Source: Bacteroidota bacterium (GTDB lineage Bacteria; Bacteroidota; Bacteroidia; UKL13-3). From it: a stretch of 64,000 nt of DNA. The notes beneath the pieces were generated by a model. That model ran no database searches and had not been told where the DNA came from. It saw only the letters and a list, made by a program, of their open reading frames with translations. The stretch is from assembly GCA_027488905.1 (NCBI GenBank), contig JAIYAT010000007.1, positions 186,001 to 250,000 on the forward strand. Reading direction: 5' to 3'. Numbering within the stretch: the stretch's first letter is position 1; each line of letters begins with the position of its first letter. A program made the translations under genes and the position numbers. Shown piece after piece: positions 14,708 to 32,312 of this stretch.

Positions 14708-16318
14708 TCACATCTCCAACCTCCCCCCAGTACTAAACCTACCAGTAGAACTAGCTACCCCTTTATCAACCTGAATAATCACATCTACTTCATGGGCATG
14801 TGAGTTCACCCCTTTAAACTTTCCTTCTTTGGTAGTATGGTAGATAAATATAAATGAAACTTCAGGGAAGGATTTGTGCAGGCGGTCAATTTCGGTAATA
14901 TCAATACCTGCTTTTGAAACAGAATCAATAAACACAAATTGATAATCTCCTAGATTTTCTGGAACGCGGTCGGTTAGGAACAAGTTGGGATGGTCGGCTT
15001 TGAGGCGCTCTATTTTTTCTTTGAGGGTATAGCCAAAACCTTCTTCTATGGCGCAAAACAGCACCTTGCCATGGTGAGCTGCCAGGTAATTGGCAAAGTC
15101 CAAACAAAGAGTTGATTTACCACTTTTCGGAAGGCCATAAACCATGGCTGTAAAACCTACACTTGGATCGCCAATGAGCTGGCGGTATTTTCCCTGAAGA
15201 CCGATGGTCTGGAATTCCATTTTAAGCAGGTCTTCTGAGTTTACCACTATTCCAGTTTCTTCATCGGTTCCGTTTAAACTTTTTTTTTGTGCAAATAAAT
15301 TCTCACCTACTATTCCCATTAGGCCATTGAGCTGTGCTTTTGCAATGGAAAGCGTTTTAGATTCTCCTTCAATAAAGGATTTAAGGGTAACAAATGCCTC
15401 GTTTAGCTTATCTGCGTATTTGTCCTGGCGTGTTATTTTACCTTGGTCAACTGATTTTTTAATCCGGGCAAAAAGCTTCTCTGATTTTTCTTTTACTCCC
15501 GCTTTACCATTAAGGGCAACAAATGCTTTAAGCAAGGCAATAGATAACATCCCTTCCTGAGTATTAGCAATCTCCAAATACCTTTTGAGGTTTTTGGAAT
15601 CAATTTTAATTTCTGCCATTTCACCCATTTTCTCATAACAGGTTATTAGCTGCTTTTGCATCAGCTCAATTTCCTTGGCATAGGCCGAATCTTTGCCAAT
15701 ACGTTTTTCTAATATGGCTTTTTGCAGGCTATGAATAAGGGTAAGAACTTGGGCTTGGGATTTCACCTTACCGTGCATGGCTGCATAGCGCTTGATAAAT
15801 GCTACATCTGAATCAATCAATTCTACTTGCTCTGCATCAGCCGATTCTACTTCTTCATTTGCTTTGATGCTGACCAGGATCATTTCGTTTTCCTCAATAA
15901 AACTCTTTGCCTGAGAAACGCTATCAAACTTTTCATTTGCAAAAATCTGGTCGGTAGCCACATCCCAAACAATAAACTTTTTAGAGCCAGCCGAAGCTTT
16001 GCGAATTTCAACTCGAAGCCCTTTGTAATTTAGAATCTTACCCTTTGATGGCGATGGATTTGGAGCCACCTTTGTCTTTTGTGCTGCCTTTTCTTTGGTT
16101 GGCTTTGATTTAGCGGTAGAACTGTTTGCTGCCAAATATCCACTGAGCTTTTCAAAATAAGCGTCTATAACACGTTTAATATTCTCATTGGTGTGATACA
16201 TTGCCCAATTGTTTTGCGATGCTCCTAGGGCTAAATTATGGCCTTTAGCGAGTGCTTCTTGCATAGTGGTCCAATTGATTGAACTCACTTGAGATTGGTA
16301 GTTATTTATGTTAATCAT
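14708..16318 (-). CDS. RecA/RadA-like ATPase of the virus-like element
   Basis: 536 residues. A long N-terminal region (1-360), with a basic linker (residues ~70-95) and helical segments, precedes a RecA-fold ATPase: Walker A GLPKSGKST (~395-403) and Walker B FVFIDS (~460), then IFIYHTTKEGKFKG. The C-terminus ends GRFSTGGRLEM. It is the last gene of the minus-strand run and starts 4 nt after the helicase stop. It could act in replication or recombination. It is not a recognisable packaging ATPase (no FtsK/HerA or terminase motifs seen). Confidence 0.7.
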   Translation of the reverse strand: MININNYQSQVSSINWTTMQEALAKGHNLALGASQNNWAMYHTNENIKRVIDAYFEKLSGYLAANSSTAKSKPTKEKAAQKTKVAPNPSPSKGKILNYKGLRVEIRKASAGSKKFIVWDVATDQIFANEKFDSVSQAKSFIEENEMILVSIKANEEVESADAEQVELIDSDVAFIKRYAAMHGKVKSQAQVLTLIHSLQKAILEKRIGKDSAYAKEIELMQKQLITCYEKMGEMAEIKIDSKNLKRYLEIANTQEGMLSIALLKAFVALNGKAGVKEKSEKLFARIKKSVDQGKITRQDKYADKLNEAFVTLKSFIEGESKTLSIAKAQLNGLMGIVGENLFAQKKSLNGTDEETGIVVNSEDLLKMEFQTIGLQGKYRQLIGDPSVGFTAMVYGLPKSGKSTLCLDFANYLAAHHGKVLFCAIEEGFGYTLKEKIERLKADHPNLFLTDRVPENLGDYQFVFIDSVSKAGIDITEIDRLHKSFPEVSFIFIYHTTKEGKFKGVNSHAHEVDVIIQVDKGVASSTGRFSTGGRLEM

Positions 16319-16321
16319 GAT

Positions 16322-19300
16322 TTAAAAGGTTAATAGTTCTAATTCAAGTTCTAAGGCCAGGGCTTCTAGCTCCAGCTCACTAATGTTTTGTCCTGGCAAT
16401 GGGGTAATTACTCCAGTAGCAGCTCTAAACTCCAAAAGGTAGTTCAGTCGGTTAAACTCCTCCGCACGACTTACCGCAGAGCGACCTTCAACCTGAAGAG
16501 CAGATTTCTTTTGCACAATCATGGCCCGCAGCTCTGCCCATTTAGGAGAGTTTCCATCCCCTTTGAAATGTTCTGCTTGCTCTATGATAGATACTTTCTC
16601 GGCTTCGTATTGCGCAATTACTGGAGCTAAGTCACTATTTAGCGAATATCCTTTTGGCTTAAGCAAGGTGCGCTCAGTTTTACGAACCTTGCTGACATAC
16701 TCTTTAAAATAATTTAGGTAATAGCGGTTCGAAAAATAGATACCCAATAGCGCATAAGAGGTTTCGATCTTTCTTCCAATGGAAAGGATATCTTTATCTT
16801 GTTGGTCTGTGCTATTGATAACTGCCTCAATATCTTCTTTGAGCTCTTTAGCTTTTTTGAATTGCTTATTGCTGGCCTCAGATTCATCAGCTACTTTGGG
16901 CAATTGCTCTAAAAAGCGCGAGGCAAGTAAAGTGGTATAAAAGCCTTGAATAGTTGTAAGTGAATCTTTTCGGTACTGATTATAATCTTCAATATCGCGT
17001 TTTACTTCAGCTAGGGTTTCAATTGCAGAGGTGACTTTTCTAAACTCACGGTTGAGCTCTTCTTTAGCCTGGTCAAAAAACATTTTTACCAATCGGTCTA
17101 CATCTGTAATCAAAGCCAGTTTAATTTCTTCTGGATCCATGCTTTCTAAATCCAGCACATTTCCTCTATCACCCCTAAACCAAATATCATTGATACGCGA
17201 TGTCTTTTCTTCTAGCTTTTGGAACACAAAAACATCCATACTGTCTTGCACCAAAGGCATTACAATGCGCACGTAGCTAAACTGATTTCCTTGTCTCCAA
17301 ATCCTTCCTTCAAGTTGGCGAATATCGGTAGGGTTCCACTCGGGATAACAGTTGTAAATAACTGTTCCGCGCTTTTGAAGGTCAATCCCCTCGCGAATAG
17401 TAGCTGTACCAATAATGATTTTAACTACGCCATCTAAGAATGCTTCTTTGATTGTTTCTTTCCGTGTATCGTTGATTTCAGAAGAAATAATTTCAACTTC
17501 ATCAACCTTTACCTTATCATACATTACCCCACGCTGATAGCCAATTTCAGTTTCTAGATACTCTTTTATCAAAGGGAAAAAGAGCTTACCTCGGTTCATA
17601 TAAATCACCTGACCACTGGCAGTTTCTCCATGGGTTTCATGCCATGCTTTAACAGAGCGAATGCATTCCATCACATAGGCAATCTTGGGCGATTGGTCTA
17701 CAAAATCTTTAGCACTTTCAGGGGTGCCTTTTAACAAATATGGCGAAAGCGCATTATCCAAACTATATGCCAAGGCACGAAACAAATTACCCATATCAAG
17801 CTTTCCCTTGGTAGCGGTTTTTGCCATGGAAACTATGCCATTTTGGTTTTCTCGCTGGCGAGGGGTCATGTTGATATAGGTGAGCACTTGCTTGTCTTGT
17901 GGCAAGCGCTCCTTAGTATTTTCAAAATTATAAATCAGTGGCAGGTTAATTTTCTTTGGCCGAATAACACCAGCTTCCTCGCCTGTTTTATACAGGATAT
18001 GATTATAAATTAGCTTTTGTAAAATCCTGCGATTGGTAAAGGATTTAATCACTTCCTTTTCTACAATCTCTTCCTTGTAATTAGCGGTCCACTCAACAGT
18101 TGGCAGCACAAATAAATCAAAGAAGGTATCTAGGTTCACTATGCCATTATCACGCAAGGAATCATAGGCCACAAGCGAGAGCATGGAGTATATTTCAAGT
18201 GGTGAATTTGAAAATGGAGTGGCTGTTAGAAGCATAGTATTTCTGCCAAACTTGCGCTGGATAAAAGATAGAATCAAAAAGGCCTTTTGACCAGTTTCCG
18301 AAACAGCCGATTGAATATTGTAGCGCTTGTTTCCATCTTCATCACTCTTTACCTGGCTAAATACATTTTTACATCTGTGCGCCTCATCCACCACAGCATA
18401 ATCAAAACCAAGGATGTCAATATCAGCAATAGAGTTTTTCTGACCTACACCAATCATTTCACGAAACTTCTGATACTCGATTTCTTTATCACGTGAGGTT
18501 TTCTCGCGGCTCTGGCCTAGGATGTTTACTAGCTCGGTAAAGAGTTCATCCGAGACAGACTCACCGAAGCCAAGGCGTTTAAACCCTTCATAAGTTACCA
18601 TGGTAATGGAGCGTTCTGGTACGGCCTGATCCAAACGGATTTTTCCGACTATATCAGTTCCTAGGTTATACCAATCGTTTAAAGTAATACCAGTGTGTGA
18701 TAATACACCTGATACAAACTCTCCTGATTTCTTGTCGGTAAAGCCAATGATTTCATTCATCCACTTTTTGTAAGTGGGTTTAGGAACAACAATAATGGGG
18801 CGCTTGCACTTGCCAGAATATAGGTTATGAGCAAGGTTCACAATAGCAGTCATGGTCTTACCAACACCTACATCAAAAGCGTTTATGCCTGAACCCATTG
18901 CCTCCATAAAAGCTACCCCTTCACGTTGTATGTCGGTTATTTGCAAAATGCCTGATTTAAAACGGGTGGAGCACTCAAAGCCAATAGGCACTTTAGAGTA
19001 ATTAATATCGGATTGACCGTTGTACATTCTATTCCAAGATAGGTCCAATTTGAGCTGGTCCTCGTGGGTTGGCACTTCATGCAAAAAGCGAGAGAATAAA
19101 CTCTCACCTTCAATGCGTGCATTTGCTCTTAGCTCTGCTTTTTCTTCTTTGCTTAGCTTATCATCACGCAAAGGGCGATTAGCCAAATAGTAATCTGCTA
19201 TGTCAATAGCTGAACTCTTTTCAAAGTCGGTTTCTGAGTTAAGGGTATAGAGCCATTTTACAAATACTTGTTGGAGTGTAAAGCGTGTTTCAGAATCAAA

Positions 19301-19993
19301 TCGGATATTGATTTTCTCCCGCTCTTTTTTGCGCTCAATTTTTCCATTTACTTTTTTGAGTTCTTCGGCATTCTCTAGGTCCATAAACTCCTCACGAACC
19401 GAGCAGACATAAAACAAGTTTACATCTACTGCAAAATCTGAAATGGCTGTTATAATAGGTCTTTCCTTTGGGTCAGGATTAGAAACAGATAAGAGTTCAG
19501 GCTTTGCTTTTTCAAGAATTGTTTGATGGATTTCAAAAACCTCTTCTCCAAATAGCCTTACTATTTCGGCCTTGTATTGTTGTAATTGACTGAGCCTATC
19601 ATAGATGTTTCCATAGGTATAAATAGGAAAAGGCATTAGCTCGCTGGCATGGTAGAACAATGCTCCAGCGCGAACTAAATCAAATAGCTCAATTTCTAAT
19701 TGCTTGCCAGTTGATTTGATATAAAACGTTTGCCAGCCACTCATGGGAACGCCAAGCTTTCGCTTATACCATACCCATGCACGAATTTCATCTTCTGTAA
19801 TCCCTTTATTGTATTTAGCTACAACCTCATCAAATGACAAGGTTTTACCCTCGGCATCACCAAGGCCAGATAGCTCCTTGGACTGAGAAAGTACCCTTCG
19901 AATTACATCGGATTGGGTATTAATGTTGTTTGTGGTATAAGCGCTCAATGCGCCTAAACCAGTAATGGTATCTATTCCTTGTAAATAGCTCAT
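16322..19993 (-). CDS. Snf2/SF2-type DNA helicase (polyvalent mobile-element type)
   Basis: 1223 residues. The motor has the motif I region (GINAFDVGVGKTMTAIVNLAHN, ~365), motif II (YAVVDEAHRCKN, ~525), motif III (MLLTATPFSNSPLE, ~580), and C-terminal helicase motifs V/VI (GTATIREGIDLQKRG, ~855; QLEGRIWRQGN, ~885). A helical tail follows. It belongs with the large helicases carried by Bacteroidota phages and plasmids, often fused or adjacent to methylase and JAB domains as here. Its stop codon overlaps the neighbours (ATGA at 19990-19993). Its last ~18 residues (ELEALALELELEL) resemble those of the upstream gene product. Confidence 0.85.
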   Translation of the reverse strand: MSYLQGIDTITGLGALSAYTTNNINTQSDVIRRVLSQSKELSGLGDAEGKTLSFDEVVAKYNKGITEDEIRAWVWYKRKLGVPMSGWQTFYIKSTGKQLEIELFDLVRAGALFYHASELMPFPIYTYGNIYDRLSQLQQYKAEIVRLFGEEVFEIHQTILEKAKPELLSVSNPDPKERPIITAISDFAVDVNLFYVCSVREEFMDLENAEELKKVNGKIERKKEREKINIRFDSETRFTLQQVFVKWLYTLNSETDFEKSSAIDIADYYLANRPLRDDKLSKEEKAELRANARIEGESLFSRFLHEVPTHEDQLKLDLSWNRMYNGQSDINYSKVPIGFECSTRFKSGILQITDIQREGVAFMEAMGSGINAFDVGVGKTMTAIVNLAHNLYSGKCKRPIIVVPKPTYKKWMNEIIGFTDKKSGEFVSGVLSHTGITLNDWYNLGTDIVGKIRLDQAVPERSITMVTYEGFKRLGFGESVSDELFTELVNILGQSREKTSRDKEIEYQKFREMIGVGQKNSIADIDILGFDYAVVDEAHRCKNVFSQVKSDEDGNKRYNIQSAVSETGQKAFLILSFIQRKFGRNTMLLTATPFSNSPLEIYSMLSLVAYDSLRDNGIVNLDTFFDLFVLPTVEWTANYKEEIVEKEVIKSFTNRRILQKLIYNHILYKTGEEAGVIRPKKINLPLIYNFENTKERLPQDKQVLTYINMTPRQRENQNGIVSMAKTATKGKLDMGNLFRALAYSLDNALSPYLLKGTPESAKDFVDQSPKIAYVMECIRSVKAWHETHGETASGQVIYMNRGKLFFPLIKEYLETEIGYQRGVMYDKVKVDEVEIISSEINDTRKETIKEAFLDGVVKIIIGTATIREGIDLQKRGTVIYNCYPEWNPTDIRQLEGRIWRQGNQFSYVRIVMPLVQDSMDVFVFQKLEEKTSRINDIWFRGDRGNVLDLESMDPEEIKLALITDVDRLVKMFFDQAKEELNREFRKVTSAIETLAEVKRDIEDYNQYRKDSLTTIQGFYTTLLASRFLEQLPKVADESEASNKQFKKAKELKEDIEAVINSTDQQDKDILSIGRKIETSYALLGIYFSNRYYLNYFKEYVSKVRKTERTLLKPKGYSLNSDLAPVIAQYEAEKVSIIEQAEHFKGDGNSPKWAELRAMIVQKKSALQVEGRSAVSRAEEFNRLNYLLEFRAATGVITPLPGQNISELELEALALELELELLTF

Positions 19994-20640
19994 AATTCTT
20001 TTAATTGAAATTCAACTTCTAAAGCCAATGCTTCCATTTCTAAAATGGATTCAGGGTTATGGGGTTTAAGATGCGCTTGCATAAAGCTTAAAATATGCTT
20101 GTTGGCATCTTCAATAAGCAGGTAATTAATATTGTCTAGAATAAAATCACCTTTATGGATTTGCAAGTTGTAATCTGCACCTTGTGAGTATAGGGTAATA
20201 TGAAAATCTTCATATCTATAAATGACTAAAAATTCCTGATCGCTTGGGTCAAAGTAATCTATAAACCACTGGCCAGGTAAATCTAAAATTAGCTTACCAT
20301 CTCCAAGGGCTTTGCCAATTGTGCTTTCAACCAACTTTCTATCACCTTCTATCGTTATTGGAAACTCTCGAGACGTTGAAAGTTTCTCAATGCCACATAT
20401 TTTTTCAGGATACATCGAAAACCAAGTGTTAAAGGTACACAGCTCGGTAAATGTTAGCGGCTCTTTTGGAAACTCCCTATCTTTTAAATACACTTCCACC
20501 ATGGCTTTCTCATCCCTGTCGGGAGGGAAAACACCTGAGCGCATCAAAGCAACGTGCCCAGCTTTTGGGTCGACTTTTGATAGAATATCCCGCAGCATAA
20601 ATACGCGAGCTCTTTGGTATCTTGGCTCTTGCTTATCCAT
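19990..20640 (-). CDS. Uncharacterised protein between JAB and helicase genes
   Basis: 216 residues, no recognised domain. The first ~85 residues (RDILSKVDPKAGHVALMRSGVFPPDRDEKAMVEVYL) are helical; the middle is beta-rich (EFLVIYRYEDFHITLYSQGADYNLQIHKGDFIL). The end, EMEALALEVEFQLKEL, closely resembles the C-terminus of the helicase encoded next. It overlaps both neighbours (1 bp with the JAB gene, 4 bp with the helicase), so the three are translationally coupled and may form a complex. Confidence 0.7.
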   Translation of the reverse strand: MDKQEPRYQRARVFMLRDILSKVDPKAGHVALMRSGVFPPDRDEKAMVEVYLKDREFPKEPLTFTELCTFNTWFSMYPEKICGIEKLSTSREFPITIEGDRKLVESTIGKALGDGKLILDLPGQWFIDYFDPSDQEFLVIYRYEDFHITLYSQGADYNLQIHKGDFILDNINYLLIEDANKHILSFMQAHLKPHNPESILEMEALALEVEFQLKEL

Positions 20641-21398
20641 TAGAGCATGTCTAAATCCGATTCAATCATTGGTATAATTGCAGCTGGCACCAATTGGGAA
20701 TGTAGCACTCGGTCTATAACCATTTTTTCAACTTGGGCATACCCATTACTTGAGTGCATCATTTCATGCAGATTGGGAGAATTAACCGCAGTAACTTTTT
20801 TTAGCTGAAGTAATATTTCCTGACGCAATTCATCTACCAAAGTATCTGGCTCATCTTGCACCCCGCGTAAAGAACTCTCTTGCTTTTCAGCAAAGGAGTA
20901 ATAGCCATTTTGTGTAATAACAAGATGGTCTAATAGGGCAATATCAAATAGTTTAAGGGCTTCCTTGATTCTGCGCGTAAGAACGCGGTCGGCTTCTGAT
21001 GGGAAAAGGTTTCCACTTGGATGATTATGAGAAATCACCACAGATTTAGCCAAAGTTTTTAAGGCAACAGCTGCCACAATTTCAACATCTACCAAGGTGG
21101 CATTAATAGCTCCAGTAGAGTGATGGTAATAACCAATGATTTTATTGGCTTGGTTTACATACAGGGCAATAAAATGCTCTTGCACTTCAATGCCAGATAG
21201 AATGCGGTCTTTGATAAATTGATAGACATCAAACGAACTAGTTATCTGGCCAAAGAAATACGCATCTTGGTTAAAGGTAACTTGAATCTCACGTACTTTA
21301 AACTCTGCATCCAACTCATCAATTTTTGATTGAAGGTCTGATAAGTCATGCTTATCAAATACAATTTGAGGCTTAATGGAATTTTCAGGATATTTCAT
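20640..21398 (-). CDS. RadC-like JAB/MPN-domain metalloprotein
   Basis: 252 residues. The JAMM signature is clear: SHNHPSGNLFPSEAD (~residues 134-148), then RRIKEALKLFDIALLDHLVITQNGYYSF, the RadC-type ending, with the upstream FIALYVNQANKIIGYYHHSTG strand pair. Such JAB proteins occur beside methylase and Snf2 genes in phages and conjugative elements; their biochemical role is unsettled (isopeptidase- or nuclease-like proposals). A C-terminal ~65 residue helical extension is present. It is coupled to the neighbouring genes by overlap. Confidence 0.85.
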   Translation of the reverse strand: MKYPENSIKPQIVFDKHDLSDLQSKIDELDAEFKVREIQVTFNQDAYFFGQITSSFDVYQFIKDRILSGIEVQEHFIALYVNQANKIIGYYHHSTGAINATLVDVEIVAAVALKTLAKSVVISHNHPSGNLFPSEADRVLTRRIKEALKLFDIALLDHLVITQNGYYSFAEKQESSLRGVQDEPDTLVDELRQEILLQLKKVTAVNSPNLHEMMHSSNGYAQVEKMVIDRVLHSQLVPAAIIPMIESDLDML

Positions 21399-21400
21399 TG

Positions 21401-22159
21401 CTACTTTCTTTTAAAAATTAAAATATCGGTTGGAACCGAGGTTGACTTAAACACAGGAGGCAAGCGGTATGCATCTAATAGGTCACATATTTTTTCTAGC
21501 TCTGCTTTTTCACTTTGATAGGAGATGCCATTGCGCATAAAATTTGAACCTGTGATATACACAAGAAGCCCACCAGAGCGAAGCATTTGAAGGCCTTGGT
21601 AAATAAAAAACAATTCCATTTGGTGCATCTTAGGCCGAGTAAAATAGCTGGAGTATTTGTTCTTGTACTTGCCATATGGAGGATTGCCAATCACCAGCGA
21701 AAAGGGATAACCTATAAGCCAAGAAACTTTGCCTTTAAGCCTAGAAGTAAAACGTGGTGGCTCTAAAAAAGCGGATTCAAAATAGCCTTCATACAGCGTT
21801 GCTTCGGGGTAAAGTATTTGTGCGATACGTTTGGCAATAGGATTAATTTCAAAGCCGGTACATTTACTTTTATCTGGCGCAAATTGAAGCATTTTACCAT
21901 TTCCCATGGCAGGCTCAAGAACGGTTCCAGATGGTTTGAACCCATAGCGGTAAGCAAGTTTCCACATAAGTTCGCATACAAAATCTGGGGTATAAAACTC
22001 ATATAAAACTCCTTCGCCTGTTGCACCCTTGGAGCCTTGTCCACCCGAACCTTCATACTGGGCAATAAGTTTTTTATCAGCATCTGAATAGGGCTTGCCT
22101 GCCTTGTCTTTTTCAAGAATAAGACTTTGTATTTGCTGATTTAATTTAAGCTGGCTCAA
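21401..22159 (-). CDS. N6-adenine DNA methyltransferase
   Basis: 252 residues. Motif I VLEPAMGNGKML (~residues 80-91) binds AdoMet and motif IV NPPYG (~158) is the N6-adenine catalytic motif. The TRD seems minimal. Together with the JAB and Snf2 genes downstream it forms the methylase-JAB-helicase set commonly fused in polyvalent proteins of mobile elements. Probable role: modifying element DNA against host restriction, which would matter in an island that also carries a type I system. The gene spans the island's only exact GGTTTGAACC (21943-21952). Confidence 0.88.
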   Translation of the reverse strand: MSQLKLNQQIQSLILEKDKAGKPYSDADKKLIAQYEGSGGQGSKGATGEGVLYEFYTPDFVCELMWKLAYRYGFKPSGTVLEPAMGNGKMLQFAPDKSKCTGFEINPIAKRIAQILYPEATLYEGYFESAFLEPPRFTSRLKGKVSWLIGYPFSLVIGNPPYGKYKNKYSSYFTRPKMHQMELFFIYQGLQMLRSGGLLVYITGSNFMRNGISYQSEKAELEKICDLLDAYRLPPVFKSTSVPTDILIFKRK

Positions 22160-22174: not shown

Positions 22175-22783
22175 TTATTTAGCTTGAATGTCGATTGTTT
22201 GTTGATAGAAAATATTGGAATATGGACTTGCTAGTTGAGCTCTTTGTTGCAGCTTTCGGGGAGAGAATATCCAAAGCCATGGATTGGCTCGCTCACCTTT
22301 AAACACGACTTGAACAAGGGTGTCAGATAATCTTACTCTGACCTTTTGAGTATCGCCTATCGCAATTCCATCAAGCTGTAGCCAAGGATCGGAATAATGA
22401 AAAACGCGAACCTGAATGGTATCTAAAATGATACTGTCCTTAATAATAGTTAGAATAGTTTTTTGCGAGACCATGCCCACAGTGCTTACTTGCCTTGCTC
22501 TTGAGGGTTTTACCTGGAGTGATTTTATGGCCTGCAAATTTTCTGGAAACAGGCTCTTAATTTCTGCAAGGCGTAGTGATAGCAAATCGGTTTGAGCAAT
22601 GAGTTTGCCATTTTCTCCTTTTAGGTAAGTAATGGTTCCTCCAAGGTTTTGAATAGAGTGAATTAGCCTTGAATTTTCAGCGCGAAGGTGCTTATTGCTT
22701 TTCCAATATATCCATAGGGCTAGGATAAGAACTGCCATTGCGAGAATTCTTAGCAGGTTTAGTCGGCTCATTATGTTTTTCAT
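22175..22783 (-). CDS. Single-span coiled-coil protein, spanin-like
   Basis: 202 residues. An N-terminal membrane helix (LLRILAMAVLILALWIYW, residues ~8-26) is followed by a coiled coil (HLRAENSRLIHSIQNLGGTITYLKGENGKLIAQ) and a beta-rich periplasmic domain. Its 5' end overlaps the 3' end of the two-helix membrane protein gene by 80-92 bp in another frame, as in holin/spanin lysis cassettes. The start could be Met1 (22783) or Met5 (22771). The role is inferred from topology and position, not sequence similarity. Confidence 0.6.
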   Translation of the reverse strand: MKNIMSRLNLLRILAMAVLILALWIYWKSNKHLRAENSRLIHSIQNLGGTITYLKGENGKLIAQTDLLSLRLAEIKSLFPENLQAIKSLQVKPSRARQVSTVGMVSQKTILTIIKDSIILDTIQVRVFHYSDPWLQLDGIAIGDTQKVRVRLSDTLVQVVFKGERANPWLWIFSPRKLQQRAQLASPYSNIFYQQTIDIQAK

Positions 22784-22961
22784 GGTAAGGGTTGGTTGGA
22801 CGTGTAGTTTGAGACCAGATATAAGTTGATAGAACTGTCATGATACCAGCAATTCCAGCCGTGGCCACTGCTTCCATTTTCAAGAAAATGGAAAGCAGTG
22901 TTACCACAGCAAGGAACACAGCGGCAGCAAGCGTAAGTCGGTAGCGGGTATGGCTAGTCAT
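22692..22961 (-). CDS. Holin-like small membrane protein
   Basis: 89 residues with two membrane helices (LTLAAAVFLAVVTLLSIFL, ~10-28; AVATAGIAGIMTVLSTYIW, ~31-50) and a charged, Pro/Lys-rich cytoplasmic tail. This is the size and topology of class II holins. It overlaps the spanin-like gene and sits near the glucosaminidase, giving a complete lysis set. Holin activity is an inference from these features. Confidence 0.6.
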   Translation of the reverse strand: MTSHTRYRLTLAAAVFLAVVTLLSIFLKMEAVATAGIAGIMTVLSTYIWSQTTRPTNPYHEKHNEPTKPAKNSRNGSSYPSPMDILEKQ

Positions 22962-24192: not shown

Positions 24193-24612
24193 TTAATTAT
24201 GGGTTAGGGTTAGGTATTTAACATATACCACATCGGTGGTTTCGAGATTGAATCTTCCATGCCAATGAAGCAAAGAGTCCTGGACATGAAATGCACTGTG
24301 AGAACCGTGGTCGAACATGGCTCCATTGACTACTAAAAACAGTCCTTCAGGGTCGGTTATATTTGGCTCAAATGGAAAATCTACTTGGCCGCTAGTAGTA
24401 ACTAATAAATTAATTTTAATCCATTCTGGTCTCCAAATAAGGCTTCCAGAAGGTTCGCTATCAGAGCCTATTTCTTGCAATGAACTGATGCGGTAAATCT
24501 CTTTGCCAAAGCGAATTTGGTCATTAACGCGATCACCCATCAAACTCAAAAGGTCTTTAGTTGAAAAGGTCTTTTGGATGCGGTTGCGAATATTGGTTAG
24601 TTTAAAAAGCAT
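24193..24612 (-). CDS. Uncharacterised beta-rich virion candidate
   Basis: 139 residues. The C-terminal half (GLFLVVNGAMFDHGSHSAFHVQDSLLHWHGRF ... DVVYVKYLTLTHN) resembles the head domain of the neighbouring fibre in pattern (an NG turn, then a final D-V-VYVxY strand), suggesting a related fold. Its ATG directly abuts the TAA of the alternative reading frame that extends the upstream glucosaminidase gene. The function is unknown; a fibre or spike component is the best guess. Confidence 0.55.
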   Translation of the reverse strand: MLFKLTNIRNRIQKTFSTKDLLSLMGDRVNDQIRFGKEIYRISSLQEIGSDSEPSGSLIWRPEWIKINLLVTTSGQVDFPFEPNITDPEGLFLVVNGAMFDHGSHSAFHVQDSLLHWHGRFNLETTDVVYVKYLTLTHN

Positions 24613-24717
24613 TTAGTTTTGTTTGAATAGTTTGATGTATAGATACCTTCCGCCTAGCAGTAATAGCAGGGCGCTTCCTATGCCAATGGTGGATTTTGTG
24701 AGAAGACTTTTTTTTTA
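24613..24717 (-). other. Alternative -1 frame extension of glucosaminidase
   Basis: From the A9 slippery run, the -1 frame runs ~34 codons: a short polar start (KSLLTKST), a hydrophobic helix (IGIGSALLLLLGG) and a basic end (RYLYIKLFKQN), stopping at TAA 24613-24615. That stop touches the ATG (24610-24612) of the next gene. Both the membrane-anchor pattern and the exact stop/start junction suggest this is real coding sequence reached by slippage, or by an ancestral frame now broken. Confidence 0.55.
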
Positions 24718-25166
24718 GCAATGGATAAAATGCTCTCATAAATGGATATAATTCCATTCATGTAAGCTTTCCTATCGTCCCCGTTTTTTTCAGAGATATA
24801 AGCGCTCTGAGATATGCGCTGGGCATAGAGTTTATAATCTGACCCTGCGGCCTTGGCTGGTTTATAGCTAGTAGAAATAAGCCTTGCAAAGTCATTAAAG
24901 CTATCTTGTGGAGTAGCGTAAACTCTGAATACCAAATTGTATTTTGGATTGGCTTTTACGGAATCTCCCTTCCAAAATTCATTGGTTTTACCAGAAGCTG
25001 TTATACCAAAAAAATTACGGTGCTTTTGAGAAAGCGTAGATGTTCCCCATGCGCTTTCAAATGCTCCTTGAGCAAGGATAACTAAAGGGTCAAGACCATA
25101 TCGCTCACCTGCATTTTTAGCAAGCTGATAGTGATTAATTACATACTGTTCTGTTTTGGTGCTCAT
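24678..25166 (-). CDS. Glucosaminidase (peptidoglycan hydrolase) with potential frameshifted membrane tail
   Basis: 162 residues in the standard frame. The glucosaminidase core is plain: LAQGAFESAWGTSTLSQKHRNFFGI (~31-55, catalytic Glu in ESAWG), then FRVYATPQDSFNDFARLI and the terminal helix. It should cleave host peptidoglycan during entry or lysis. No signal peptide is present. Near the 3' end, an A9 run (24709-24717 on the minus strand) precedes the stop. Reading -1 there continues the frame to 24613, adding a hydrophobic helix and basic tail. The gene overlaps the upstream membrane protein by ATGA. Confidence 0.85.
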   Translation of the reverse strand: MSTKTEQYVINHYQLAKNAGERYGLDPLVILAQGAFESAWGTSTLSQKHRNFFGITASGKTNEFWKGDSVKANPKYNLVFRVYATPQDSFNDFARLISTSYKPAKAAGSDYKLYAQRISQSAYISEKNGDDRKAYMNGIISIYESILSIAKKKVFSQNPPLA

Positions 25167-26215
25167 GATTCTTGCAGGGTTTTAACAGATTGTTTATCTA
25201 CCCATCTTAGGTTATTATCTATGGTTCTGAACTGAATAAACTGCCCATGTTGGGTATCTAAACTCATCATTGGCTCGCCTAGCAGAGTATTAGCTCCAGC
25301 ATGATTGATGGGAATGAGTTGCTCGTTTAAAATAATGGCTTTGGTAAGGGTCAATAAAATGGGTGATGGCAAACCTTTAAGCGTAAAAAAGTCTTGAGGC
25401 TTCATCCATGCTGTTAGGGGAGTAGTTGCTGGGTAGGCATCATACATGTTTTTGTAAAAAGGGAAAATATCTACATAATCACTTGAGCTCGATACCCAAA
25501 GGCTCACACGCATTTTGTTTTTATCCTTCAAGGCTGATGGCGCCTTGGCTGCATTAATCACATAAGCCACTTCGATAAATTTCACATTGTTCTTTTGGTC
25601 GTATTGCTGGCGTCCTGTGGCATATCCTAAAAACTCTCCAGGCTTTGCTGTGCGAATAACGTTCTTATCTGAAAACTGCTCATAAATAGCTCCATGATTT
25701 GAAGCATCTGGAGTTGTTCTTAAGGTGACTTCCTTTTTAGCAACCACAAGGCTACTGGCTTTAGCATACTCAACCGCTGGAGCACTGCCACCACCTGTTT
25801 GCTTTTTGGGATTAGAGGCTATAATGGACAGGAATTTTTGATACTCCGATGCACTTAATTCACCTTGCAAATCATCTAATAAATTATCACCAAACAAATT
25901 GGAGTAATCCTTCATTACTTGATCTAAACTGGTAATGGTTTTAGCTGTTTCTAAGACAACAGATACATTGGTTGTATCAAAGCTTTTAAACCATGAAATT
26001 CCCGAAGGGTTAATAGCAGAGCGAAGTCCAATTGCCTGCCTTGTGGATGGGCTATCATCAACTTGGGATTGAGTACCTGATTTTTTGAGTTCAAATAGTA
26101 GCTTTTGGGCTAACTTATAAGAAATATATACTCCACCAACCAATAGGATTCCATTAACAATCTTTGCAGGATTGAGGCCAATGTGTTGCTCTAATGTAGA
26201 AGGATTGGTAGGCAT
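25163..26215 (-). CDS. Single-pass membrane protein of the virus-like element
   Basis: 350 residues. One N-terminal membrane helix (VNGILLVGGVYISYKLAQKLLF, ~20-41), then a large soluble domain that includes an SH3-like or beta-rich portion (SLVVAKKEVTLRTTPDASNH ... FLGYATGRQ). It is coupled to the glucosaminidase by an ATGA overlap. No family recognised. Possible roles are a virion membrane protein or an entry-complex component. Confidence 0.6.
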   Translation of the reverse strand: MPTNPSTLEQHIGLNPAKIVNGILLVGGVYISYKLAQKLLFELKKSGTQSQVDDSPSTRQAIGLRSAINPSGISWFKSFDTTNVSVVLETAKTITSLDQVMKDYSNLFGDNLLDDLQGELSASEYQKFLSIIASNPKKQTGGGSAPAVEYAKASSLVVAKKEVTLRTTPDASNHGAIYEQFSDKNVIRTAKPGEFLGYATGRQQYDQKNNVKFIEVAYVINAAKAPSALKDKNKMRVSLWVSSSSDYVDIFPFYKNMYDAYPATTPLTAWMKPQDFFTLKGLPSPILLTLTKAIILNEQLIPINHAGANTLLGEPMMSLDTQHGQFIQFRTIDNNLRWVDKQSVKTLQES

Positions 26216-26224
26216 AAGTTGGAC

Positions 26225-26437
26225 TTATTTAACAGTAAGGTAGGCGCGGATTTTTAGACGCATATCAAAGGATTCGAGCTTTTTAACCATTAATTGAAGC
26301 TCGGTGGCATTAAACTCATCCGCAATTTTTTGGAGCGATTCAGTGATGATTCGCTCTTCGATATTGTCTTTTGGACGTATTTTGAGTTGAACCGTTTTTG
26401 GTTCAGCTTTTTTACCTGGGCGTAATGATGGAAACAT
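26225..26437 (-). CDS. Small basic protein of the virus-like element
   Basis: 70 residues, Lys/Arg-rich N-terminus (MFPSLRPGKKAEPKTVQLKI) followed by a helical segment. Unrecognised. It is packed 9 bp from one neighbour and 4 bp from the other, so it is probably a genuine gene of the operon. Confidence 0.55.
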   Translation of the reverse strand: MFPSLRPGKKAEPKTVQLKIRPKDNIEERIITESLQKIADEFNATELQLMVKKLESFDMRLKIRAYLTVK

Positions 26438-26441
26438 GATT

Positions 26442-27236
26442 TTAAGATTGTGGTGTGGTGGTGTTTTGTGTAATTAGTTCAAGAATGGTTTTAAGGGTGC
26501 TCTTATCCTTTTCAATCTCACTTAGGAGTAAATACATCGTTCCTAATTCTTGGTTGCTTAAACCCTCGCAAAAGGTCTGAATCAAATCAAGAATTACTTC
26601 TCTTTGATTTGGGTCTTTGTCCTTTGCTTGGTCAATTTGATTCGACGTTTCTTCCGTGCCAGATAAAAAGTTAATAGCACTTCCAACTGGCGTTCCAGTG
26701 AAGAATTTTGCTAATCCTGGCAGAGCCATTCCAATAACTGAGGAGTAATATTCAATTTGCTTTTTAGCATCCAAACTGGCTTGCATGTCTGAGACCTGAT
26801 ATTGCAGCTCTTCATTTATGGCAATTGCATTGGTTAGCTCAGCACTTAATCTTTCAAGCTCTTTGCTCCGCTCCATTTCTGAGAACTTGCGCTGAACCAA
26901 ATCGTTTACTTCTGCTTCGCCAAGGCCAGCATAGCCCGATAGGGATTTAGGAATATCTTCAAGTGAATCATTCAACTCATAGACCTTTGACCAAATAAGC
27001 ACATTGTCCTGGGCCGTTTTAAACTCCACTTTTACCTTGTCAGGATTTTCGGCTTGATTATAACTCAATATTAGGCTGGAGTAGTTGGCAATGGCAGCAT
27101 TTTCAATGCTGTTTAGCTTTTTGCCATTGCGAGAAAACATGGCATTAAACACCACATTGGTATACCCTTGCTTTTCAAAGGTTTTTTCCATCCTTTTTCC
27201 CGTCTGGGATACGTTATATATTTTTGGCTTGCCCAC
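26442..27236 (-). CDS. Coiled-coil protein of the virus-like element
   Basis: 264 residues. An alpha/beta N-terminus (~1-100) leads into a coiled coil (~115-165: SEMERSKELERLSAELTNAIAINEELQYQVSDMQ), a hydrophobic patch (YYSSVIGMALPGLAKFF) and a helical C-terminus. Unknown function. It overlaps the next gene by 1 bp. A structural or scaffolding role is possible. Confidence 0.6.
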   Translation of the reverse strand: MGKPKIYNVSQTGKRMEKTFEKQGYTNVVFNAMFSRNGKKLNSIENAAIANYSSLILSYNQAENPDKVKVEFKTAQDNVLIWSKVYELNDSLEDIPKSLSGYAGLGEAEVNDLVQRKFSEMERSKELERLSAELTNAIAINEELQYQVSDMQASLDAKKQIEYYSSVIGMALPGLAKFFTGTPVGSAINFLSGTEETSNQIDQAKDKDPNQREVILDLIQTFCEGLSNQELGTMYLLLSEIEKDKSTLKTILELITQNTTTPQS

Positions 27237-27556
27237 TAGATTAGGATTTGTATAAACTCAATGACTGGATAGTCTGTAACATGAGCTGGAATAACTATTA
27301 CCACCAAACCTGAAAACTCTTCTAAGCCTTCTGAAAAGGCATGTTCTGGGCCAATTTCAACAATATTGGTATCGGATATTATCCTTGTTCCAATGGGTAA
27401 CCTTTCGGCGTTGGTCAGAAACAAAAGCTCGTTGTAGGCTTGGAATTCATATCGGTTCAAGCCAACATGTGTGACAATCTTTTTAAAGCGATGTAGCTCA
27501 ATTGAAATTTCTCTTTGAGCCAATTGCTCTTTGATGTAGGTTATAGGGTCTAGCAT
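27236..27556 (-). CDS. Uncharacterised small protein
   Basis: 106 residues with an N-terminal helix and a beta-rich end (SGLVVIVIPAHVTDYPVIEFIQILI). No family recognised. It is packed by overlap on both sides (1 bp and 7 bp) in the virion-gene part of the operon. Confidence 0.55.
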   Translation of the reverse strand: MLDPITYIKEQLAQREISIELHRFKKIVTHVGLNRYEFQAYNELLFLTNAERLPIGTRIISDTNIVEIGPEHAFSEGLEEFSGLVVIVIPAHVTDYPVIEFIQILI

Positions 27557-28020
27557 AGCTTATCCTCCTGATAAAAACTATCGGCATATTCTTGGCTTGG
27601 ATTAACTGATGGCTTGGGATCGGTGTTGATAGTACTTTTTTCTAGTGCACTGCACTTAAAGTAGACACTGATGCTGTAAGGAGAAAAACTGGTTATAGGG
27701 GTGGTATCTGTATAAATACCACTGACCAGTGCGCCAGATTTTAGAGTTATTTCCAGGGCTTGAAAATCATACTTATCATCAACCTCGTCTAAAGCTGGAC
27801 AAGCAACTACGGCTGCGATAGCATTTTCTTTTAGGTTGTTAAATTGCAGGTTTAACCAACCTATTTCAGAAAGATACTTATCGGAGCGAAGCCCCTTAGT
27901 GTGCTTGACTAAAAACCCTGTGCATCTTTTTAGGTATGCAGGAATTTTGTGATTGATGTGTATGGTTTGACCACTGGACTCAACCTGAAATCGCAAGATA
28001 TTATAGCGTATAAATGCCAT
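27550..28020 (-). CDS. Beta-rich virion protein candidate
   Basis: The start is taken at the ATG 28018-28020 (MAFIRYNILRFQVESSG), because the longer frame would overlap the upstream gene by 68 bp. The 156 residues alternate hydrophobic strands in a way compatible with a single jelly roll (RFQVESSGQTIHI ... FQALEITLKSGALVSG ... SISVYFKCSA), ending in a disordered acidic tail. It lies next to two similar beta-rich genes. The structural assignment is a guess from pattern. Confidence 0.5.
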   Translation of the reverse strand: MAFIRYNILRFQVESSGQTIHINHKIPAYLKRCTGFLVKHTKGLRSDKYLSEIGWLNLQFNNLKENAIAAVVACPALDEVDDKYDFQALEITLKSGALVSGIYTDTTPITSFSPYSISVYFKCSALEKSTINTDPKPSVNPSQEYADSFYQEDKLC

Positions 28021-28024
28021 TATC

Positions 28025-28423
28025 TCAATTCTCGTTGGTAAGCCACAAATAAATTTTTGCCTCATATGGATAGCCCTCAGTTGGGAGGTCACCTGCTGCT
28101 ATTTCCGCAGTAGCTCCATCTGTAAGACGTCCTTCAATAGAGCTTCCTCCAGCGTCTAAATGCTCTTCAAACAAGAAGAACTTTTGGTTGGGGGCAACCT
28201 GATTGCCGCTGGTTAGAAGCTTTACTTCATGAAGTTCTTCAAAGACTTCTTGATTGTTCACCTTTAGTCCAAGCATAGTTCCAGCAATCAGATTTTCCTG
28301 AGGAAGCGAAACGTATATACCTCTTATCCGAGCATATTGCTTGTCGGTTTGCGCAGATAGTCTTAATGATTCTCCAGGACTGTTAACAGTAACTCTGATT
28401 TGCTGAAACTTGTGCTTTTTCAT
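28025..28423 (-). CDS. Beta-rich virion protein candidate (small, jelly-roll-like pattern)
   Basis: 132 residues: FQQIRVTVNSPGESLRLSA, then IRGIYVSL, GTMLGLKVNNQEVF, FFLFEEHL, and a final YEAKIYLWLTNE strand. The strand pattern and small size suit a single jelly-roll capsid or spike protein. It is followed immediately by the other beta-rich gene (4-bp gap). No sequence family is recognised. Confidence 0.5.
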   Translation of the reverse strand: MKKHKFQQIRVTVNSPGESLRLSAQTDKQYARIRGIYVSLPQENLIAGTMLGLKVNNQEVFEELHEVKLLTSGNQVAPNQKFFLFEEHLDAGGSSIEGRLTDGATAEIAAGDLPTEGYPYEAKIYLWLTNEN

Positions 28424-28445
28424 GGGTGGTGGATAGGATTATGGT

Positions 28446-29150: not shown

Positions 29151-29173
29151 AATTTATGGGATTAGGGATGTGA

Positions 29174-29695
29174 TTAAATGATTTCAAAAAATACAGGGCT
29201 TCCTTCCAAGGCGTATTCACCTGATTCATCTCTTGAAGGAAATTCTTTACTGGAAGAAAGAGCTGGCAAATCTGGATTGTAGCGATCAACAGAAAGATTC
29301 ACTGGTTCACGGTAAACGGTAGGTTCACCCAAAAATCCACTGATGCCATTGAAAGTGAAATTATCAAGGCCAGCAAGTAGGTCTTTTTTAAGCACCACTT
29401 TCACGCCCGATAAAACCCCTGATGCGCCAATACCTGTGGCGATTAATTTCATGTTAGGGTCTTTAAGGAAAATGTTACCAGCTGCGCCTGCTCCAATTAA
29501 AGCCGCTGGGCGCACAAATGCTTTTACATTGAGCCCTGTTATGGTTGGGTCAACTTTGAGTATCTTGTCAATCATTTTGCCGCTAATAGAGCCAATTACG
29601 ACCCCACCTGTGAGCAATGCCAAGGATTTGATTTCATCCATGACAGCTTGGCCACTGACTTTGGTTTTGGATTTGGTTTTTGTTTTGGTTGCCAT
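29174..29695 (-). CDS. Membrane protein of the virus-like element
   Basis: 173 residues. A basic start (KTKTKSKTKVSG) precedes three moderately hydrophobic Gly-rich segments (LALLTGGVVIGSISGKMI, ~29-46; AALIGAGAAGNIFL, ~67-80; MKLIATGIGASGVLSGV, ~85-101), then a polar C-terminus with an acidic end. The segments look like membrane helices of a small virion or envelope protein. Unrecognised family. Confidence 0.55.
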   Translation of the reverse strand: MATKTKTKSKTKVSGQAVMDEIKSLALLTGGVVIGSISGKMIDKILKVDPTITGLNVKAFVRPAALIGAGAAGNIFLKDPNMKLIATGIGASGVLSGVKVVLKKDLLAGLDNFTFNGISGFLGEPTVYREPVNLSVDRYNPDLPALSSSKEFPSRDESGEYALEGSPVFFEII

Positions 29696-29714
29696 ATCGT
29701 TGGTTATTTATGGG

Positions 29715-31580
29715 TTAGAATAATCTGACTGCTTTAATCTTTGATTTTTTGGTTTGCTTTGGCTTCCCGCTGTTTTTGCCATGCTTGGTTCTTTTAATTC
29801 CCGTGCCTGATAAGCCTGATTTTTTCGCAGTCTTTTTAGGTGCCATGGCTTTATAAATGCCATATCCTATAATGGCTCCACCAATGGCTACAGGAATTGG
29901 ATTTTGTTTGATGAAGTTTAAAATTCCTCCTGTGCTTGGTGCTGCCGCGCTTGATTGCTCCATGGCAACAGGATATACTTCTGAGTAATTGCCACCTGGA
30001 TTAGCAGGTGCAACTAAAACAGGTGTCATGGGTTGCACAACAGCTGGAGCATTTTCGTTTGCTTGAATCTGAGCTGCAATTGTGGCAGAAGTTGGATCAG
30101 CTGCGGCCTCACTTTGCATTTTTGAAACATCCACATTTTCATTTTTGCCCATCAAACCTGTTTCTTTTAAAATGTTGATGGTAGCAATAATTACAGGTGT
30201 AGCCGCGGCAATAGCTGTAGCAGTTACAGGATCGCCCAATTGGCCTAATTGACCTAAGGCGTATCCATCCACATAGCCAGATAGATTTCCTGCTTTGCCG
30301 TTTAGAATGGCATTTTTTAAGGCAGTTCTATCGCCTTGGAGTTTATCTGCAAAAAGCGCTTCAACTTTTACCAAAGCGTTCTTACTTTTTTGCCAAGTGT
30401 CTGCACTCACATTTTTTGCAGCTGCTTGCTCTTTTGTGGCATAAGCCCATTTAAGTTTTGAACCTATTCCGCCAAGGTTGAGTTTTAATGCCAGCAAAAA
30501 GCCACCCCTTGCAGCAAGAGAAAGTGGGTTGAATTTAACTACTGCTTTTACAGCCGATTTAGCTACTTCTGCAACCTTGTTTCCTACCTTATTGGCAACT
30601 GTGGTAACCGCTGTTTTTACATTGGTAAAAAAGCCTTTGATGTTAAGTCCGCTTAAGGCTAAATCATCTGGGTCTAGCTCAATTCCATTTACTGTTTGAA
30701 GCCCATTTTTCAAGTTGAGCTGTTGCTCGTTTTTAGCTAAGATATCCAAAGCCTCCACGCGCTTGTTGGTATACCAATATTGAATAGCATAGTCAAGCAT
30801 CTTTAGCAATGCTTGGGGATCATCCACTGTGGAAACCAACCCAGGGTTTTGAGCCACTGCGTTTCTAGTGGCAACCAAGTTTTGGTAGAGCTTATCTAGG
30901 TCGTCTTGGCTGGAAGTATCTCCCAAACCAAAGCCATTAAGTGAGGTAGCCATGACTGCATCGTGAAAGTCATTGCCTGAAATGCCGCTGAGTACAGCTA
31001 CATTGATTCCTTTTAAATTCATAGCATAATCCATTTTGTCGGTGAAGGTTTTTTCGTAATTGAATTGCGATATCACGCTATCAATCACACAATACTTTTT
31101 TGAATCGCTCAGTGGTACTATCACATAAACATGTTGCCATGTATCACCTGAGTATTTAGTGATACGAAAGCTATGAGGGATTTGTAGGTTGGTAAGAATA
31201 GATGAAGCAAAAATGCTCATGCAATCGCAGTCAACGCCAGTTGAACGTTCTGCCCATGTGCGAGCTGGCCTTCGTAATTGTTCAAGGCCTCGCTTGTCGA
31301 GCTTGTATTGAATGTAGGAATAGACAAACTCCCAGATTGCTTTACAAGTTTCAATAGTAGATGCCCGCTTGAGCAATGGAGCTAGTCGCCTGGTGTCGTC
31401 AAGGTATTTCCAAACAACTTTCTCCATTAACTCTACGGTATCGGTCACCTCACCATCATCGATGATAATGCGATCGCGTTCCTCTGGCGGAGGAAAATAA
31501 GCGTTAAAGCGACTTCCATCCTGGATAGAACGGTAGCCACTGGTAACAGCTATATTAGGATTGTCACAGCACTTTTTCAT
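29715..31580 (-). CDS. Transglutaminase-like protein with C-terminal membrane anchor
   Basis: 621 residues. The N-terminal domain (~60-175) carries a transglutaminase-type triad: Cys118 in TGVDCDCMSIF, His150 in TWQHVYV, and Asp167 in YCVIDS. Middle regions include Ala/Lys-rich helices (~320-350). A membrane helix lies near the C-terminus (IPVAIGGAIIGYGIYKAM), followed by a ~45-residue very basic tail. Transglutaminase-fold proteins act as proteases or crosslinkers; here a virion-maturation or entry role is plausible. It overlaps the next upstream gene by ATGA (31577-31580). Confidence 0.75.
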   Translation of the reverse strand: MKKCCDNPNIAVTSGYRSIQDGSRFNAYFPPPEERDRIIIDDGEVTDTVELMEKVVWKYLDDTRRLAPLLKRASTIETCKAIWEFVYSYIQYKLDKRGLEQLRRPARTWAERSTGVDCDCMSIFASSILTNLQIPHSFRITKYSGDTWQHVYVIVPLSDSKKYCVIDSVISQFNYEKTFTDKMDYAMNLKGINVAVLSGISGNDFHDAVMATSLNGFGLGDTSSQDDLDKLYQNLVATRNAVAQNPGLVSTVDDPQALLKMLDYAIQYWYTNKRVEALDILAKNEQQLNLKNGLQTVNGIELDPDDLALSGLNIKGFFTNVKTAVTTVANKVGNKVAEVAKSAVKAVVKFNPLSLAARGGFLLALKLNLGGIGSKLKWAYATKEQAAAKNVSADTWQKSKNALVKVEALFADKLQGDRTALKNAILNGKAGNLSGYVDGYALGQLGQLGDPVTATAIAAATPVIIATINILKETGLMGKNENVDVSKMQSEAAADPTSATIAAQIQANENAPAVVQPMTPVLVAPANPGGNYSEVYPVAMEQSSAAAPSTGGILNFIKQNPIPVAIGGAIIGYGIYKAMAPKKTAKKSGLSGTGIKRTKHGKNSGKPKQTKKSKIKAVRLF

Positions 31581-32080
31581 CCTTGAAATTTTTGAGGAGG
31601 TGATTGATGAAAAATGCCGTTAACGTATGTCGTAAAAGACATTTCTAGCGGTAGGTTCAAAGATGCTAGTACATTGGAAAGCTTCTTAGTTTTAAAGGCA
31701 CTAATGAGTGCAGGGATTTGAGTAATAATTCCACTAATGACACTTGAAAGGGAAGTCCAAGGCACTATCAATTCAATTGTATCAATATTAGATACCGAAA
31801 GGGGCTTAATTTGAATAGTTTTATTTTCAGCAATGGATTGGGTCAATACCTTACCATTTGACCAGAGAGAAACCACTGGTTTAGTCATATTCAAACTATC
31901 TTTGGTAGGGTTGTTTACAGCTATTTCGGTTCTAAATGAAATGCCACCCAGATTTACATCATGAATCCTTGGGTTGGCTAATTTAAACGTAGAATTATCC
32001 GACACGTTTTGTGCCTTTACCATACGAAGGAAAAACAATCCCACAGCTCCGAATATACCTATGCCAATGAGTTTATTCAT
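31577..32080 (-). CDS. LEA2-like membrane-anchored protein
   Basis: From ATG 32078-32080 (MNKLIGIGIFG), preferred over 32104, which would deepen the overlap with the upstream gene. 167 residues: N-terminal membrane helix (LIGIGIFGAVGLFFLRMV), then a water-stress/LEA type 2 beta-sandwich pattern (GGISFRTEIAVNNPTKDSLNMTKPVVSLW ... IQIKPLSVSNIDTIELIVPW). LEA2 domains are extracytoplasmic; here it may be a periplasmic or virion-membrane component. Confidence 0.65.
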   Translation of the reverse strand: MNKLIGIGIFGAVGLFFLRMVKAQNVSDNSTFKLANPRIHDVNLGGISFRTEIAVNNPTKDSLNMTKPVVSLWSNGKVLTQSIAENKTIQIKPLSVSNIDTIELIVPWTSLSSVISGIITQIPALISAFKTKKLSNVLASLNLPLEMSFTTYVNGIFHQSPPQKFQG

Positions 32081-32312
32081 TGTCATTAGATTTACGGTTC
32101 TCATAATATTCTGAAACTTCTTTGGAGAGTTTATCTAGCAGCTTTTTTACAACATATCCAGCGGCAGCAGAAGCAGCAGCATAAATAACCACTGTGCTTA
32201 AACCACCAAAAGTGATTGCAAGCAAAAGCGGTTTCGCGCTAACGGCTTTAGTGATTCCGCCTATTACACCAGATAGGGTGGTAAAGATTACTGTATGGGC
32301 TTCTTGTGACAT
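32073..32312 (-). CDS. Small membrane protein, first gene of the virus-like operon
   Basis: 79 residues with two hydrophobic stretches (TVIFTTLSGVIGGIT, and LLLAITFGGLSTVVIYAAASAAAGYVV) and a basic/acidic tail (KKLLDKLSKEVSEYYENRKS). Unrecognised. It starts the long minus-strand run; the promoter must lie in the 330-bp gap upstream. A short hairpin abuts its start codon. It overlaps the following gene by 8 bp. Confidence 0.6.
   Translation of the reverse strand: MSQEAHTVIFTTLSGVIGGITKAVSAKPLLLAITFGGLSTVVIYAAASAAAGYVVKKLLDKLSKEVSEYYENRKSNDNE

Follow-up and report, generated by a model that had tools for sequence, protein, structure and literature searches.

What kind of genetic element is encoded at positions 14708-32312 of the 64,000-nucleotide stretch of Bacteroidota DNA that we analysed (the window)? 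An initial annotation, made from sequence alone, had described about 20 tightly packed minus-strand genes over 17.6 kb, had recognised no terminase, portal, sheath, or tape measure among them, and had suggested an icosahedral membrane-containing virus or a virus-derived particle. The description of the block held: we counted 22 minus-strand ORFs, abutting or overlapping, that run from 32312 down to 14708, and designated them A to V. The G+C content of the block is about 0.39 to 0.43, against 0.31 to 0.37 in neighbouring stretches. Searches with Pfam and PHROGs found no terminase, portal, sheath, or tape measure among the 22 ORFs. Indeed, none of the structural genes of the block was convincingly matched by Pfam, PHROGs, or NCBIfam, and the same is true of all genes at 25163-32312, which are as follows:

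32073..32312, minus strand: A, first virion-module gene, a 79-aa small membrane protein with one hydrophobic segment (homologues at 66 loci)
31577..32104, minus strand: B, 175 aa, with an N-terminal membrane anchor (homologues at 102 loci)
29715..31580, minus strand: C, a 621-aa membrane-associated transglutaminase-like protein (Pfam DUF553, E 0.001)
29174..29695, minus strand: D, 173 aa, with a weak hydrophobic segment
28446..29150, minus strand: E, a 234-aa predicted single jelly-roll protein, proposed major capsid protein (AlphaFold2 and VIA-align)
28025..28423, minus strand: F, 132 aa, predicted to fold as a single jelly roll and proposed to be the penton or a second capsid protein (AlphaFold2, pLDDT 91.4)
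27550..28092, minus strand: G, 180 aa, paralogous to F and proposed to be a minor capsid protein (profile-profile comparison)
27236..27556, minus strand: H, a 106-aa conserved protein (homologues at 68 loci)
26442..27236, minus strand: I, a 264-aa conserved protein (homologues at 71 loci)
26225..26437, minus strand: J, a 70-aa conserved protein (homologues at 72 loci)
25163..26215, minus strand: K, 350 aa, with an N-terminal hydrophobic stretch in some homologues

Could such a set of unmatched genes be a chance assembly? Aligned with genome G003, the window shows 84.6% nucleotide identity over 14709-32430, and the two sequences diverge just outside. Between them, dN/dS is 0.02 to 0.28 across all 22 genes, which indicates purifying selection. 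The initial annotation had called for a search for the same gene order in other Bacteroidota; iterated profiles showed that the A-to-K order does recur across the phylum, being kept in 71 of the 73 usable loci (those with at least 6 kb downstream). Hence, the block is not a chance assembly.

Is it an entire virus? That reading of 14708-32312 was dropped once att sites and an integrase were located outside the block:

36904..38217, minus strand: tyrosine integrase of the element (Pfam Phage_integrase 3e-16), adjoining the tmRNA gene
38433..38447, plus strand: right att repeat GTGGAGCTGCAGGGA, within the 3' end of the tmRNA
38433..38798, minus strand: tmRNA, the integration target (ARAGORN)

The 15-bp repeat GTGGAGCTGCAGGGA recurs just once elsewhere in the genome, upstream of the window (G000:C37:173472-173486), and the two copies delimit a mobile element of 50,961 bp. 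The earlier statement that no integrase lies inside the block was thus correct for the block but must be amended, since the element's own integrase sits 4.6 kb upstream. The 17.6-kb unit must be amended too: the element is about 51 kb long and extends beyond the block to take in the integrase, the replication genes, and both att sites. Homologues of the integrase are found upstream of the same module in G003, G009, G019, G029, and G139, and those of G003 and G009 also adjoin the tmRNA. In G004 and G005, the sequence found outside the left repeat of the window's element sits directly at the tmRNA, as expected for a junction without this element. We conclude that the element is att-bounded and integrated at the tmRNA, with its own integrase and primase-helicase. 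It meets the temperate-virus criterion of site-specific integration (integrase and att repeats). It does not meet the criterion for an integrative conjugative element, namely relaxase and type IV secretion genes: a Pfam scan of element ORFs of at least 100 aa revealed no relaxase or conjugation genes, and nothing beyond an RteC-like protein. An FtsK-type packaging ATPase was sought in the element (Pfam FtsK and related) and not found; the genome's matches to PF01580 (FtsK-like) are on other contigs, outside the element.

The G003 element measures 47.4 kb between its two repeats. It has in common with the window's element an HTH gene, the primase-helicase, Type I restriction genes, the 17.7-kb module, and the integrase; the remaining content differs, so that the two elements represent the same backbone with different cargo. 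Because the module is common to both while the rest differs, we regard it as a unit inside a larger cargo-carrying provirus, and most probably as a virion-lysis-early gene module rather than the whole element.

One related contig, G005:C22 (L104), carries two tmRNA-end att copies, at 9856 and 16314, with 6.4 kb between them. Next to the first of these, the inner end equals the left end of the window's element. The tmRNA site thus seems to take up elements repeatedly, as tandem or remnant integrations.

What would such a module build? The initial annotation had pointed to 27550-29150 as the place to look for jelly rolls, and the outcome was positive: the models predict one single jelly roll for E and another for F, to which G is paralogous. 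In the AlphaFold2 model of E, residues 80-234 form a beta sandwich, mostly at pLDDT 75 to 90; the N-terminal 57 residues are poorly modelled and the N-terminus is uncertain. The top VIA-align match of this model is the SPV1 capsid chain 6oj0_A (Z 9.3 over 143 residues, rmsd 3.5), followed by the giant-virus capsid barrels of EhV-201, PBCV-1, Faustovirus, and SGIV (Z 8.0 to 8.8). The best cellular match, PHM, scores Z 7.7, which is 1.6 below SPV1; Foldseek gave a weak match between E and the FLiP penton 8a06. E also has the lowest dN/dS in the block (0.017, window versus G003) and was recovered at 72 of 73 loci. Its fold, its conservation, and this near-constant occurrence lead us to infer that E is likely the major capsid protein.

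F has structural matches to EhV-201 (Z 8.0), HHIV-2 chain b (7.5), and SPV1 (6.6), with cellular jelly rolls intermixed. F and G are linked at a profile-profile probability of 99.9%, and their family has three copies in some lineages; neither has a detectable link to E. Sequence-profile searches of E, F, and C against the PDB returned no credible match, and hence the fold claims rest on structure prediction alone. It should be borne in mind that jelly rolls occur in cellular proteins too.

For A, B, C, D, K, P, and Q, membrane segments are predicted in some or most homologues. C, which had been described as a membrane-anchored transglutaminase-like protein, has a hydrophobic C-terminal part, and its C118/H150/D167 set is invariant across 16 homologues. 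Its assignment is inferred from this Cys-His-Asp set together with the weak Pfam match (0.001), and its activity is likewise an inference.

Downstream of K lie genes for lysis, fibres, and nucleic-acid transactions:

24678..25166, minus strand: L, glucosaminidase endolysin (Pfam PF01832, E 1.3e-23; PHROG endolysin 1.3e-20)
24193..24612, minus strand: M, 139 aa, possible fibre or spike component
23267..24184, minus strand: N, 305-aa fibre-like protein (PHROG tail fibre 2.7e-33)
22965..23255, minus strand: O, 96-aa protein
22692..22961, minus strand: P, 89-aa small membrane protein, holin candidate (weak PHROG holin match, 0.038)
22175..22783, minus strand: Q, 202-aa DUF6549 protein, spanin candidate (Pfam 8e-53; weak Rz-like match, 0.022)
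21401..22159, minus strand: R, DNA methylase of polyvalent type (Eco57I/N6 methylase 3e-11)
20640..21398, minus strand: S, RadC/JAB protein (Pfam PF04002, 1.8e-36)
19990..20640, minus strand: T, 216-aa protein
16322..19993, minus strand: U, 1223-aa SNF2-type helicase of polyvalent type (PHROG 6.5e-83; Pfam SNF2 3.8e-14)
14708..16318, minus strand: V, RecA/RadA-type ATPase, last module gene (profiles RecA 2e-20, RadA 5.5e-13)

The glucosaminidase, methylase, JAB, Snf2, and RecA assignments of the initial annotation all held, by Pfam, PHROG, or profile matches. Its holin-like and spanin-like genes received weak support (0.04 and 0.02), the spanin candidate being a DUF6549 protein; the membrane segment of P is present in all homologues. 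The fibre-like claim held only in part, as the PHROG match for N covers low-complexity Ala/Thr sequence. Proteins of the RecA/RadA superfamily type have been noted among the polyvalent proteins of Bacteroidetes elements (PMC5512222).

How widespread is the module? Of 147 related genomes, 21 encode protein C, some of them in several copies, and by genus it is present in 14 of 82. E occurs in 8 of 395 genomes sampled from the phylum. The GTDB genome collection contains relatives of C at 157 or more places; the 80 loci that we fetched have Bacteroidota titles except for one bin labelled proteobacterium. In the tree of E, host orders are mixed and not congruent with it. Relatives are also borne by the circular Persicobacter plasmids CP012854, CP012856, and AP025302 (47.6, 48.8, and 53.2 kb in all), typed as non-mobilizable, and by a Persicobacter megaplasmid. 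Isolates that carry such an element include Chitinophagaceae bacterium LGM1, Taibaiella soli, and Persicobacter psychrovividus NBRC 101262. The same virion core is found on the complete chromosome CP075895, with a large serine recombinase upstream of it and a transglycosylase instead of the glucosaminidase lysin. An alignment-based search of IMG/VR yielded just 4 contigs with relatives, and five proteins of the window and its relatives had no match in INPHARED (50,697 phage records). The gene order is undescribed in the open-licence literature searched, so the claim that no recognised virus family has it held within INPHARED and that literature. The findings that the initial annotation had said would refute it, a terminase or portal, a match to a known phage, or conjugation genes, did not occur (Pfam/PHROGs, INPHARED, and element ORFs of at least 100 aa, respectively).

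Genome G106 holds at least 5 related copies (contigs C1, C15, C16, C18, and C22). The C15 copy has an XRE/ImmA-like regulator gene upstream of the module, and no integrase like that of the window was present on the fetched stretches. Charybdis elements (PMC12324425), which are 4.6 kb long and have an archaeal host, were examined and set aside.

The best explanation, in our judgement a likely one, is that the element is an integrated provirus whose family, widespread yet undescribed, consists of bacterial viruses that have no tail and probably contain a membrane. The proposed icosahedral membrane-containing virus or derived particle is to that extent supported; the internal membrane, lipid, infectivity, and a real particle remain inferences. 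In favour of the provirus stand the jelly-roll models of E and F, the paralogy of G, the A-K order, the integrase and att sites, and the comparison sites that lack the element. The shared backbone with different cargo in G003, the Persicobacter plasmids, purifying selection strongest on E, the exchange of lysin and recombinase in CP075895, and the incongruence of the E tree with host orders favour it as well. Against it, particle, induction, and virome evidence is lacking, as relatives came from just 4 contigs of IMG/VR and from no cultured phage; the element has no packaging ATPase of the kinds known from viruses; its length of about 51 kb is large by the standards of tailless single-jelly-roll viruses; and, as regards the capsid proteins, the N-terminus of E is poorly modelled, cellular jelly rolls exist, and F matches both viral and cellular folds.

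How might such a virus work? By analogy, we expect it to resemble the portoglobovirus and sphaerolipovirus types. The integrase would insert the genome at the tmRNA, where the provirus would also excise, some relatives persisting as plasmids, and replication would proceed via its own primase-helicase. E would form the main capsomers and F and G the pentons or minor capsomers, in a jelly-roll shell assembled over a protein-rich internal membrane containing A, B, C, D, and K. Through its Cys-His-Asp site, C may cross-link or mature virion or membrane proteins. N and M are putative host-binding fibres, and L (glucosaminidase) would lyse the cell together with P (holin-like) and Q (spanin-like). 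The methylase-RadC-SNF2-RadA set would protect and process the genome, and V may help to pack or anneal DNA, substituting for the absent FtsK-type motor.

Among known viruses, the Portogloboviridae (SPV1) are the closest in kind. They have a single jelly-roll capsid protein, which is E's closest structural match at the level of fold only (Z 9.3), and a second jelly-roll protein, to which the predicted jelly roll F and its paralogue G may correspond, with a penton role that is only inferred. Absence of a packaging ATPase, predicted membrane proteins, and circular forms (here in some relatives) are further likenesses. Their internal lipid layer has as counterpart only predicted membrane proteins, lipid being inferred. 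However, they have circular dsDNA of about 20 kb, as against 50,961 bp for our element, 47.4 kb in G003, and 48-53 kb in the Persicobacter plasmids; their host is Saccharolobus/Sulfolobales (archaea) rather than Bacteroidota; and they are presumably nonlytic, whereas our element has an endolysin and lysis genes. It also differs in tmRNA integration, the transglutaminase-like protein, and the polyvalent genes, and there is no detectable sequence similarity.

The Halopanivirales/Helvetiavirae (SH1, HCIV-1, P23-77) likewise carry at least two adjacent single jelly-roll genes and encode small membrane proteins, and some of them are temperate. Helvetiavirae have two single jelly-roll major capsid proteins; here E and F are the predicted jelly rolls, with inferred capsomer roles. 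Yet these viruses carry an FtsK-like packaging ATPase, which is absent from the element (V is of RecA/RadA type), their fold match is weaker (Z about 7), and F and G are paralogues of each other without a detectable link to E. Sphaerolipoviruses encode a conserved putative ATPase along with their two capsid proteins (PMC12643093), and their genomes are 28-31 kb, compared with about 51 kb here. We therefore file the element under neither the Portogloboviridae, where host and genome size fail, nor the Halopanivirales, where the ATPase features fail. Its RadC, SMS/RadA-type domains, SNF2 helicase, and methylase occur together in polyvalent-protein modules of phages and conjugative elements (PMC5512222), but in the window's lineage they are separate genes, tied to a jelly-roll virion module.

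Single jelly-roll membrane viruses are not known outside archaea and Thermus. It has been argued that viruses of the SPV1 type, which have a single capsid gene and lack a packaging ATPase, preceded the two-capsid helvetiaviruses (PMC8812541). If the provirus reading is true, such a family in a major bacterial phylum, with complete isolate genomes and circular plasmid forms, would make this SPV1-first scenario testable in culture. Viral databases would have missed nearly all of these proviruses: 157 loci in one genome collection stand against 4 IMG/VR contigs and no cultured phage. A bolder reading, which is no more than possible, is a lineage with the rank of a new order or higher that branched off early among the single-jelly-roll viruses and is portoglobovirus-like. 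Its genome would measure about 50 kb, a membrane-anchored transglutaminase would cross-link its virion, and an ATPase of RecA/RadA type would take over packaging from the missing FtsK-type motor.

Perhaps the element is instead a satellite that makes its own coat and lysis proteins and needs another phage for DNA packaging or induction? The lack of an FtsK-type packaging ATPase and the variable, cargo-rich flanks would fit. However, the element has its genes for virion, lysis, integration, and replication in full, which argues against a satellite, and SPV1 and FLiP likewise lack a packaging ATPase (PMC8812541); we consider this unlikely. Similarly improbable is a vesicle-like or gene-transfer-like particle, domesticated or borne on a plasmid, that passes DNA among kin and has lost infectivity. 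The Persicobacter plasmids and megaplasmid, the restriction and transport genes, and the several copies per genome speak for it; the element's own integrase and its att repeats, which are intact, the swapping of recombinase and lysin modules, and an E tree that does not follow host orders speak against it.

Membership of the FLiP/PhiCjT23 group, whose members are phages of Flavobacterium that contain lipid and have a double jelly roll as capsid protein, is very unlikely. These are tailless lipid phages known from the same host phylum (PMC9719478, PMC5894146), FLiP lacks a packaging ATPase as our element does, and its penton 8a06 weakly matches E. However, the capsid protein predicted here is a single barrel of 234 aa, the conserved core offers no obvious double-barrel candidate (D, H, I, and K being without models), the element is 47-51 kb rather than a small circular ssDNA genome like that of FLiP, and no phage-collection sequence matched. 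Finally, it is very unlikely that the block encodes a tailed phage, a tailocin, or an injection machine that has diverged so far that its terminase, portal, and tail genes go unrecognised. A fibre-like protein, a lysis cassette, and polyvalent genes that occur in tailed phages too would fit, but the capsid predictions are jelly rolls, no HK97-fold capsid, portal, or terminase as in Caudoviricetes was detected (Pfam/PHROGs for core genes, the jelly-roll model for E), core structural genes have no PHROG match, and no conserved core protein has the size and soluble character of a terminase, portal, or tape measure.

Under the provirus reading that we prefer, the genes flanking the module are cargo:

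158..11154, strand not assigned: Schlafen/AlbA protein and a Type I restriction system with several HsdS copies
33042..36018, plus strand: genes for a TonB-dependent receptor and for cation efflux, with the virion module on one side and the integrase on the other

The genes at 33042-36018 have no counterpart in the G003 element. The Type I restriction region at 1794-11154 includes one methylase and a tyrosine recombinase at 7143-8108, and HsdS genes or pieces lie on both strands (3429-4715, 4708-5274, 5405-6013, and 6006-7103). It resembles a phase-variable specificity shuffle, and may possibly be one that is carried as provirus cargo. The left arm of the element (L108:11459-12331 and L108:10481-11335) encodes a separate zinc-ribbon/transglutaminase-core protein and a trypsin-like protein; the latter matches the PADLOC candidate PDC-S45 (6.5e-112). 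Lastly, a 1.27-kb insertion-sequence-like unit with inverted ends lies at 45127-46396 of the window, and a 79% identical copy of it is found in G004 (L106:13371-14641).
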